A stretch of DNA of 64,000 nt from Aestuariivita sp. GTDB lineage: Bacteria > Pseudomonadota > Alphaproteobacteria > Rhodobacterales > Rhodobacteraceae. The notes beneath the pieces are model-generated. The model did no database searches, had not been told where the DNA came from, and saw only the letters and a list, made by a program, of their open reading frames with translations. The position numbers were made by a program, and so were the translations under genes. The DNA is taken from positions 868,001 to 932,000 of the forward strand of contig JAGYKE010000004.1 of the NCBI GenBank assembly GCA_018401465.1, written 5' to 3'. This document shows positions 26,317 through 29,493 of the stretch, one piece after another. Numbering within the stretch: the stretch's first letter is position 1; each line of letters opens with the position of its first letter.

Positions 26317-27426
26317 TTAACGCGGTGTAAATCCGCCCCCGCAAGCGCCTGATTTCGTTGGGCTGTCAGGCCGTCCCATCATGGGACACCCCCGCCAATC
26401 AAGCACGACCTTGCCGCTCTGCCCCGACCGCATCGCCTCGAACCCCGCCCCGAAATCGCGCGCGGCAAAGCGGTGCGTGATGACCCCCCGCACGTCCAGC
26501 CCGTTCTCCAGCATCGCGATCATCTTGTACCAGGTCTCGAAGATCTCGCGCCCGTAGACGCCCTTGATCGTGATCGCCTTGAAAACGATCCGCGACCAGT
26601 CCACCGGGGATTTCCCCGGCGGAATGCCCAGCAGCGCGATGCGGCCCCCCATCACCAGCGTCTCGACCATCTGGTCGAGCGCGGCCTGATTGCCCGACAT
26701 CTCCAATCCGACGTCGAAGCCTTCCTTCATCTTCAGGGCACCTTCCACCTCGCGCAGGTCCTGCCGCGCGACATTCACCGGCACCACATCCGCCACCCGC
26801 GCGGCCAGGTCCAGCCTGTCCTGATTGACGTCCGTGATCACCACATGCCGCGCGCCCACATGCCGCGCGACGGCGGCGGCCATGATGCCGATGGGCCCCG
26901 CCCCGGTGATCAGCACATCCTCGCCCACCAGATCGAAGGACAGCGTGGTGTGGACCGCATTGCCCAGCGGATCGAGGATCGCGCCGATTTCGTCGTCGAT
27001 CCCGTCCGGGAGGGGGACGACATTGAAGGCGGGCAGGCGCAGGTATTCGGCGAAGGCGCCCGGTTCATTGACCCCGATCCCCCGCGTCGCGGGGTCGAGG
27101 TGGAACTTGCCCGCGCGGGCCTGCCGGCTTTTCCGGCCGATCAGGTGGCCTTCGCCCGAACAGCGCTGCCCGATCTCCAGCCCCTCGACATTGCGTCCGA
27201 TCTCCACGATCTCGCCCGCGAATTCGTGCCCGGTGATCAGTGGCACGGGAACGGTCCGCTGCGCCCAGTCGTCCCAGTTCCAGATATGGACATCGGTGCC
27301 GCAGATGCCGGTCTTGTTGATCCGGATCAGCACGTCATCGGGCCCGATCTCGGGGATGGGCGCGGTCTGCATCCAGAGCCCCTCGCGCGGCTCGGCCTTC
27401 ACAAGGCATGTCATCTTGTTGGTCAT
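26317..27426 (-). CDS. tdh: L-threonine 3-dehydrogenase
   Basis: A 369-residue zinc-type alcohol dehydrogenase fold that oxidises L-threonine to 2-amino-3-ketobutyrate. The catalytic zinc site is intact (C42, T44, H47 in [15 protein letters not shown] and H67-E68 in ITGHEFAG), as is the NAD fold ([17 protein letters not shown]). The structural-zinc cysteines at the positions equivalent to E. coli 93, 96, 99 and 107 are replaced by G97, S100, A103 and D111. The C-terminus has about 25 extra residues beyond the family end (...VVLDW), encoded by a dispersed repeat. It overlaps kbl by 4 nt (27423-27426). Confidence 0.95.
26323..26400 (-). repeat. GTCCCAT palindromic repeat, copy 1, read as the tdh C-terminal tail
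   Basis: A roughly 75-bp element holding GTCCCAT-C-ATGGGAC at 26373-26387, bounded by GATTG on the tdh side and AATCCGCCCC on the other. It aligns well with 36306-36379. Here it is in frame and adds [20 protein letters not shown] and five more residues to Tdh. Confidence 0.65.
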
Positions 27427-28607
27427 GTCAGGACTCCGGTGGCGCGGCCTGCCGCCTCAAACGCGGTCAGGGCGAAGGTGAGGTCGTCGCGGGTCAGCGC
27501 GGCATTCATCTGGGTGCGGATGCGTGCCTGCCCGCGCGGCACGACCGGGAAGAAGAAGCCCGAGACATAGACGCCTTCCCCGAACAACCGCGCCGCCATG
27601 TCCTGCGCCAGCCGCGCCTCGCCCAGCATAACGGGGATGATCGGGTGTTCGCCGGGTAAGAGGTCGAAGCCCAGCTTCGTGAGGCCCGCGCGCCAGAACC
27701 GCGCGTTGTCGAAGAGTTGCGCCCGCAGGTCGTCGCCCTGTTCCACAAGCTCCAGCGCCGCGATCCCCGCCGCCACGATCGCGGGCGGCAGCGAGTTGGA
27801 AAACAGGTAAGGCCGCGCCCGCTGGCGCAGCAGGTCGATCACCGGCTGCGGCCCGGCGACATAGCCGCCGATCGACCCACCCAGCGCCTTGCCGAGCGTG
27901 CCGGTCAGGATATCGGCCCGCACGCCCGCATGATGCGGCGTCCCATGCCCCTGTGGCCCCATGAAACCCGTGGCGTGGCAATCGTCGACCATCACGACAG
28001 CGTCGTACCGGTCGGCCAGCGCGCGGATGTCGCGCAGGGGGGCGAGATATCCGTCCATGCTGAAGACGCCGTCGGTGGCGATCATGATGTGGCGCGCGCC
28101 GTCCGTGCGGGCGGCTTTCAGCCGGGCCTCCAGATCCTCCATGTCGGCGTTCGCATAGCGATAGCGCCGCGCCTTCGACAGGCGGATGCCATCGATGATG
28201 CTCGCGTGGTTCAGCGCGTCCGAGATGACGGCGTCTTCCGGGCCAAGGAGCGGCTCGAACAGCCCGCCATTCGCGTCGAAACAGGCGGCAAACAGGATCG
28301 CGTCGTCCATGCCCAGAAAGGCGGCGAGCCGCGTTTCCAGTTCGCGGTGTAGATCCTGCGTGCCGCAGATGAACCGGACCGAGGCCATGCCAAAGCCATG
28401 GTCGTCCATCGCGGTCTTCGCGGCGGCGATCAGCGCGGGGTGATCGGCCAGACCAAGGTAGTTGTTGGCGCACAGGTTGATCACCTGCCGCCCGCCCACG
28501 TCGATCCGCGCGCCCTGCGGCGAGGTGATGAGGCGTTCGCGTTTCGTCAGCCCCTCGGCCTCGATCTGCGCCAGCGTGTCGGTCAGGTGGGCGAGGTATG
28601 CGGACAT
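27423..28607 (-). CDS. kbl: Glycine C-acetyltransferase (2-amino-3-ketobutyrate CoA ligase)
   Basis: A 394-residue PLP enzyme of the alpha-oxoamine synthase family. It cleaves 2-amino-3-ketobutyrate with CoA to glycine and acetyl-CoA, finishing threonine breakdown begun by Tdh. Family marks are [19 protein letters not shown] near residue 45, [17 protein letters not shown] and the PLP-lysine region [15 protein letters not shown]. The start ATG at 28607 lies 98 nt beyond the hairpin array, and the tdh ATG overlaps its stop. The XRE-cupin regulator gene lies upstream on the same strand. Confidence 0.96.
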
Positions 28608-28704
28608 GGGGCGACTCCGTTGGCTGCGGGTATTCTGCCATAACGGAGGGGATTCCGGAATGGGGGATATCCGGCTTGACGGAAAAAATCCGAAATGACG
28701 GAAG

Positions 28705-28801
28705 CGGATCGCGACGCGCGATCCGGCCCGGAAACCGACGCGGTTTCCGCGCGCCCGGAGCCTGCGTCAGGCTCCGCCCGATTTTCCGCGTCGGAAAATC
28801 G
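28705..28801. repeat. Array of four tandem hairpins with complementary 5-nt loops
   Basis: Four perfect hairpins lie end to end: 28705-28725 (8-bp stem, loop GACGC), 28729-28749 (8 bp, GACGC), 28756-28776 (8 bp, GCGTC) and 28779-28801 (9 bp, GCGTC). Spacers are 3, 6 and 2 nt. Stem sequences all differ. The first two loops are the reverse complement of the last two, so loop-loop (kissing) pairing is possible, and the array reads the same way from either strand. It begins 2 nt after the XRE regulator stop and ends 98 nt before kbl on their shared strand. I do not recognise it as a named RNA family. Confidence 0.85.
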
Positions 28802-28803
28802 CC

Positions 28804-29370
28804 TCAGGCGTCGCGCACAACCAGAAAGGCCCGCGCCGGGCCGCCCTGCGCGCTGATCCGGTGCGCCACATCGGCGGCATAGCGCGCCGTGTCCCCGGGC
28901 CCCAGCGTCTGGCGCACCTCGCCAGACCGGACCTCGACTGAGCCCTCGATCACGGTCAGCTGCTCGCGCGCCCCGCGCCGGTGCGGCCGGCTGTCGAGCA
29001 CGCCGCCTTCCGTGAATTGCAGCTCGTAAAGCTCGTGATCGCCCGCGTCCTCGGGTGGCGACAGGATCAGGATGCGGCAGCCTTCGCCGCGCCGGTCGAT
29101 GCTGGGGGTCTGGGCGGCGCGGATCACCTCGATCCGGGCAGGGCCCGGCCCCTCGTCCAGCAGCCCCGCGAAATCCACCTGCAGGGCCCGCGTCAGGTTC
29201 CACAGCGTCGCGATGGTGGGCGAAGATTCCCCGCGTTCGATCTGGCTCACCATCGACCGCGACACGCCTGACAGCTTCGCCACCGCATCCAGCGACAGGC
29301 CCTTTGCGCGCCGCGCCTCGCGCAGGCGGGCGGGCAGCTGGCCCAGGATGCGGTCGGGATCCTCCGTCAT
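28804..29370 (-). CDS. XRE-family transcriptional regulator with C-terminal cupin domain
   Basis: A 188-residue regulator. The helix-turn-helix is in residues 10-65 (LREARRAKGLSLDAVAKLSG then VSRSMVSQIERGESSPTIAT); a small cupin sensor domain fills residues 100-188 (EQLTVIEGSVEVRSGE, LGPGDTARYAADVAH). Such proteins often control amino-acid or polyamine catabolism and bind a metabolite in the cupin. Its place directly upstream of kbl-tdh on the same strand suggests it controls threonine degradation. The start ATG 29370 (MTEDPDRILGQL) is preferred to an ATG 36 nt upstream. Confidence 0.88.
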   Translation of the reverse strand: MTEDPDRILGQLPARLREARRAKGLSLDAVAKLSGVSRSMVSQIERGESSPTIATLWNLTRALQVDFAGLLDEGPGPARIEVIRAAQTPSIDRRGEGCRILILSPPEDAGDHELYELQFTEGGVLDSRPHRRGAREQLTVIEGSVEVRSGEVRQTLGPGDTARYAADVAHRISAQGGPARAFLVVRDA

Positions 29371-29493
29371 GACGGATATGTCCTCCGCTTTCGCGCCGCC
29401 TGTCAAGCGGGCTGCGACGCCGGGTCAGGGCTGACGGCGGCGGGCGCACGGCGCATACTGCAGACCGAATCCGGGAGAGAAGGGAAGACCCGC

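Follow-up and report, generated by a model that had tools for sequence, protein, structure and literature searches.

The four tandem hairpins at positions 28705-28801 of the window, that is, of the whole 64,000-nucleotide stretch analysed, are very probably a copy of a dispersed element of the Rhodobacteraceae which resembles REPs and BIMEs, is placed behind stop codons and has long been kept there. In this element, two units of tandem hairpins with GACRC loops and a pitch of 23-24 nt are inverted with respect to each other and separated by a short variable spacer. The overall explanation, in which this element also forms a two-directional structure at gene ends, is in our judgment evenly balanced between right and wrong. 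A structured-repeat family is defined here in a much-studied group of marine bacteria, with no match in the libraries searched, and is supported by strong compensatory evidence at orthologous sites. Since the stems are free while polarity, pitch and loop are fixed, the family offers a clean natural system for finding out if REP-like palindromes next to stop codons work as RNA, work as DNA or are selfish.

The array and its locus

The array and its two neighbouring genes comprise the following features.

28705-28725, plus strand: hairpin H1, CGGATCGC-GACGC-GCGATCCG, arms of 8, unit polarity F, a perfect palindrome
28729-28749, plus strand: hairpin H2, CGGAAACC-GACGC-GGTTTCCG, arms of 8, polarity F, loop-to-loop pitch from H1 24 nt
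28756-28776, minus strand: hairpin H3, CGGAGCCT-GCGTC-AGGCTCCG on the plus strand, arms of 8, GACGC loop on the minus strand, polarity R
28779-28801, minus strand: hairpin H4, CGATTTTCC-GCGTC-GGAAAATCG on the plus strand, arms of 9, polarity R
28704-28750, plus strand: F-F half-array, covariance model R1 match G000:C3:896704-896750
28755-28801, minus strand: R-R half-array, covariance model R1 match G000:C3:896755-896801
28804-29406, minus strand: XRE-cupin regulator, an open reading frame with Pfam HTH_3 and Cupin_2, stop codon adjoining the array
27423-28607, minus strand: kbl (2-amino-3-ketobutyrate CoA ligase), Pfam Aminotran_1_2, co-directional with the regulator and downstream of it

All four hairpins are perfect, with the loops GACGC, GACGC, GCGTC and GCGTC in this order. 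When the G-C pair within the loop is included, H1 to H4 reach 9, 9, 9 and 10 bp and are closed by the triloops ACG, ACG, CGT and CGT. Model R1 represents one half-array, and its E values of 4.2e-11 (F-F) and 3.9e-10 (R-R) were obtained with the window copy among its building sequences. The window holds 58 perfect hairpins (at least 7 bp, loop of 3-8 nt), and GACGC or GCGTC loops are found only in H1-H4; five first-order shuffles of the window, with 34-50 hairpins each, gave no hairpin with either loop. RNA folding of 28600-28810 yields z = -4.5 and beats 200 of 200 shuffles. The original prediction thus described the hairpins correctly in position, arm length and loop, and its remark that stems vary around fixed loops holds for the window copy as well as for the aligned half-arrays discussed below. 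The repeat nature of the array is not visible from the window.

The name kbl is based on the original prediction and on a tdh-like neighbouring gene. H4 ends 2 nt from the stop codon of the regulator. Among 80 regulator orthologues, the array accompanies only two, one in the same genus (L069) and one in Aestuariivita sp. FE80 (L070). Where four hairpins are present, regulator and kbl lie 195-196 nt apart; the three hairpins of Aestuariivita FE80 go with a gap of 179 nt, and most array-less relatives have ~95-113 nt. From these lengths, the array is a ~97-bp insertion behind the stop codon of the regulator and ahead of a conserved, putative kbl promoter block. This block (28625-28703, minus strand) lies upstream of kbl and carries repeated TCCG..CGGA inverted motifs, TTCCGTCATTTCGGATTTTTTCCG...TTCCGGAATCCCCTCCGTTATGGCAGAA. 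It probably contains the kbl promoter together with operators for the XRE-cupin regulator, and it is also present in relatives without the array. Control of threonine degradation by the array, as had been suggested, is not supported, since the same element stands behind unrelated genes and 78 of the 80 regulator orthologues lack it.

A dispersed repeat behind stop codons

The covariance-model search with R1 places the element at ~18 loci in its own genome, the window copy included, and the array is therefore not the kbl-tdh-specific feature it had been taken for. In all 14 of these loci with two confidently matched halves, the plus-strand half precedes the minus-strand half. Blast of 28600-28820 against 61 genomes returned 19 matches in the own genome, 13 in one same-genus genome and few elsewhere. 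At nearly all of these sites, two GACGC hairpins are followed by a spacer and then by two GCGTC hairpins, with different stems. A covariance-model search of Rhodobacteraceae genomes, of the kind which the original prediction had proposed, found R1 matches in 43 of 395 (own genome included), and several genomes have at least 12-15 matches. In other families of the Alphaproteobacteria, ~330 sampled genomes gave no R1 match; among 337 genomes sampled across the class, matches are confined to the own genome and one other member of the Rhodobacteraceae. The loops depend on the genus: Aestuariivita sp. FE80 (G061) possesses its own array set with loops GACRC and GYGTC, and GGCGC/GCGCC loops occur in genome G010. 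The F-F-R-R layout is seen in 53 of 102 arrays; most of the remaining ones are shortened forms, and R before F is almost absent.

Rfam 15, searched at gathering and relaxed thresholds, gave nothing relevant and no family at gathering score. Plasmids and phages, searched by Blast with the array, yielded no family member (one weak, chance-like match is in Deinococcus), and a Rhodobacteraceae repeat of this kind was not found in the open-access literature.

Most copies are located at stop codons. Relative to the stop codon, the majority of hairpin edges fall between -13 and +12 nt, where gene starts and stops are those of a codon-usage gene caller trained in the analysis rather than of a curated annotation. 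The gene context is convergent for 53 of 105 arrays, co-directional for 47 (45%) and divergent for five. This convergent excess (p = 0.0002) compares arrays drawn from many genomes with the window's own neighbouring gene pairs, of which 9 of 49 are convergent. In the group with edges at -10 to -13, the TGA of the upstream gene sits inside the loop of the first hairpin (e.g. L194, L152, L248, L247, L160), and the 5′ arm is therefore coding sequence. L194 and L152 form an orthologous pair in which the TGA occupies this loop in both genera despite different stems. Genes ahead of the copies include dddP, gshA/plsY, ispG, metG, rimO, fructose bisphosphate aldolase, guanine deaminase and others. The neighbours are metabolic and mutually unrelated, with no functional theme.

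Within an array, the stems alternate. Across 65 arrays from 14 genomes (window copy included), H1 resembles H3 and H2 resembles H4 at 5.2-5.3 of 8 positions, against 3.6-4.2 of 8 for the other combinations, a likeness reached by none of 5000 within-array permutations. In most cases, stems with an A core alternate with stems with a T core (ATAT 16, TATA 10). If the second unit were a simple inverted duplicate of the first, H1 should be similar to H4, contrary to the likeness observed. RNA folding was considered as the cause of the alternation and rejected, the real order being no better than permuted ones (mean rank 0.50).

Upkeep of the stems

An alignment of 50 half-arrays over 47 columns, with the second halves reverse-complemented, defines a 20-pair structure. 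In these half-arrays, which were preselected by a near-perfect-hairpin filter, 94.6% of cells are paired, two-sided changes occur at 18 of 20 pairs and two-sided cells number 281, compared to 86 in shuffles. Because of this filter, the pairing test was redone without it. With a perfect hairpin as anchor and a partner with any stem of at least 4/8 pairs taken at 22-25 nt, 1800 pairs read along the adjacent gene comprise 1741 Watson-Crick, 7 G-U, 19 A-C and 33 other combinations. The mRNA strand shows no preference for G-U, and hardly any wobble occurs on either strand; an RNA helix in which wobble is free would show more G-U than 7 in 1800.

Orthologous arrays, identified via neighbouring proteins or DNA, display 101 two-sided Watson-Crick changes (12 of which belong to the misplaced L176-L056 chain and are to be disregarded), 32 one-sided changes and 9 two-sided unpaired changes. 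One-sided changes outnumber two-sided ones within the genus, whereas nearly all changes between genera are two-sided, as two-step compensation under selection predicts. The compensatory changes by which the original prediction wished to see the structure judged are therefore present both in the half-array alignment and at orthologous sites. Furthermore, nine of ten arrays sampled in a same-genus genome are orthologous to array loci of the own genome and several arrays are common to different genera, so that movement of the array is old.

Both halves of the element are kept. Co-directional arrays retain 7.82 of 8 pairs in the near half and 7.65 of 8 in the far half, the one without a preceding stop codon. 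Synteny breaks at one array of the same-genus genome (L060): in the own genome (C4 550.5-553.7 kb), the counterparts of its two flanks are separated by 1.6 kb in which there is no array match.

Known systems and possible roles

The closest published group is that of the CGTC-tagged REPs of alphaproteobacteria (Di Nocera et al. 2013, PMC3733652). These share 8-9 bp stems, 4-5 nt loops, the arrangement as inverted dimers, a location no more than 20 bp from either 3′ end in convergent gene pairs and the lack of an association with a transposase. In contrast, CGTC is an unpaired end motif there, while GCGTC/GACGC forms the loop of the palindrome in the copies aligned or listed here; a CCA tail is described there, while only 4 of 65 arrays here have A as the third base behind H4; and the tandem hairpin pairs, fixed pitch and F-F-R-R order belong to the present element. 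Rhodobacter, Roseobacter and Paracoccus are not named in the text of that paper (PMC3733652). Since neither the unpaired CGTC end nor the CCA tail is found, we set the array apart from this family, as a REP-like repeat which is apparently undescribed.

GTAG REPs and the REPIN-RAYT system (PMC3116915, PMC3733652) are likewise dispersed palindromes, often in inverted pairs with a variable spacer, but they have a cognate RAYT transposase and none is associated here. The Y1_Tnp domain (PF01797) is absent from both array-rich genomes of the same group (G000, G001); one of the 43 array-positive genomes has a weak match, and across the family there is no association. Identity with REP/RAYT is rejected on this ground.

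In E. coli, BIMEs form a mosaic of inverted palindromes at the 3′ ends of genes and bind gyrase, IHF or Pol I; REPs near stop codons influence the stability of the mRNA, termination and the release of ribosomes. The Rhodobacteraceae element shares the mosaic of inverted palindromes at gene ends but is apparently unrelated in sequence, and its loops are conserved while its stems are free.

As to function, we tentatively favour a two-directional transcript-end structure which would protect mRNA 3′ ends. The element is inserted immediately after a stop codon, in some cases across it, and has been retained for long periods. Around the stop codon of each flanking gene, the mRNA would fold into two short hairpins, and these could keep exonucleases off the 3′ end and reduce read-through to the neighbouring gene, from either direction. 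Such two-directional action would explain why Watson-Crick pairing is kept on both strands. A role in RNA alone would predict decay of the far half and favoured G-U pairs, and the data go against both. The kept far half and the near absence of wobble therefore fit a two-directional or a DNA element better than an RNA acting from one strand. Against this reading, only ~18 gene ends in the genome carry the element, and these share no gene theme. It is improbable, if conceivable, that the F-F-R-R loops and alternating A-core/T-core stems constitute a new gene-end device, selected in both strands across genera, in which the transcripts of both neighbours would finish with one and the same tandem-hairpin signal, read by a dedicated loop-recognising protein.

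A rather doubtful alternative is that the element acts as DNA, either as a duplex or as an extruded cruciform, and could for example be a topoisomerase or nucleoid-protein site at the supercoils between convergent genes; such a DNA-level role has reportedly been proposed for E. coli BIMEs. The strand-symmetric layout, the almost complete lack of G-U on the mRNA-sense strand, the similar upkeep of near and far halves and the enrichment in convergent gaps would all agree with it. However, 45% of the copies are co-directional, the stems offer no fixed sequence to a duplex-binding protein beyond the A/T core, and the copies are tightly linked to stop codons, not to the centres of gaps.

We consider it unlikely that the element is a non-autonomous, selfish repeat which does nothing for the host, is tolerated at gene ends and has its arms kept by hairpin-templated correction. 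Like other REPs it is dispersed and patchily present and was inserted behind a stop codon at the kbl locus, and perfect Watson-Crick arms would suit templated correction. Yet there has been little recent movement, as the orthologous copies within and between genera attest, PF01797 provides no candidate mobility gene, and one-sided changes prevail at short divergence, as in two-step compensation.

Bidirectional intrinsic terminators would likewise place hairpins between convergent stop codons, and in one copy of the own genome (L186, C3 ~520.4 kb) a hairpin of the family is joined to a canonical intrinsic terminator, AAAAGGCCCGGAAACC-GCGTC-GGTTTCCGGGCCTTTTCTTTT. This reading is very unlikely and was rejected because there is no T tract (U in the transcript): at least 4 T in 8 nt are found in only 57 of 538 hairpin tails. 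In addition, a separate canonical terminator accompanies the array in the same gap at L235, L249 and L299.

The kissing-loop RNA cluster controlling kbl-tdh of the original prediction is scarcely credible: the loops are complementary, but loops 3 and 4 match loops 1 and 2 because the second unit is inverted, the ~18 copies stand beside unrelated genes, and relatives which lack the array also conserve the kbl promoter block. Most non-consensus loops have no matching partner in their array. Over 65 complete arrays, 166 of 260 loop pairs match, against 158.6 (sd 3.4) in within-genome shuffles, a slight excess (p = 0.024); taken singly, the loop pairs give p = 0.05 to 0.48.
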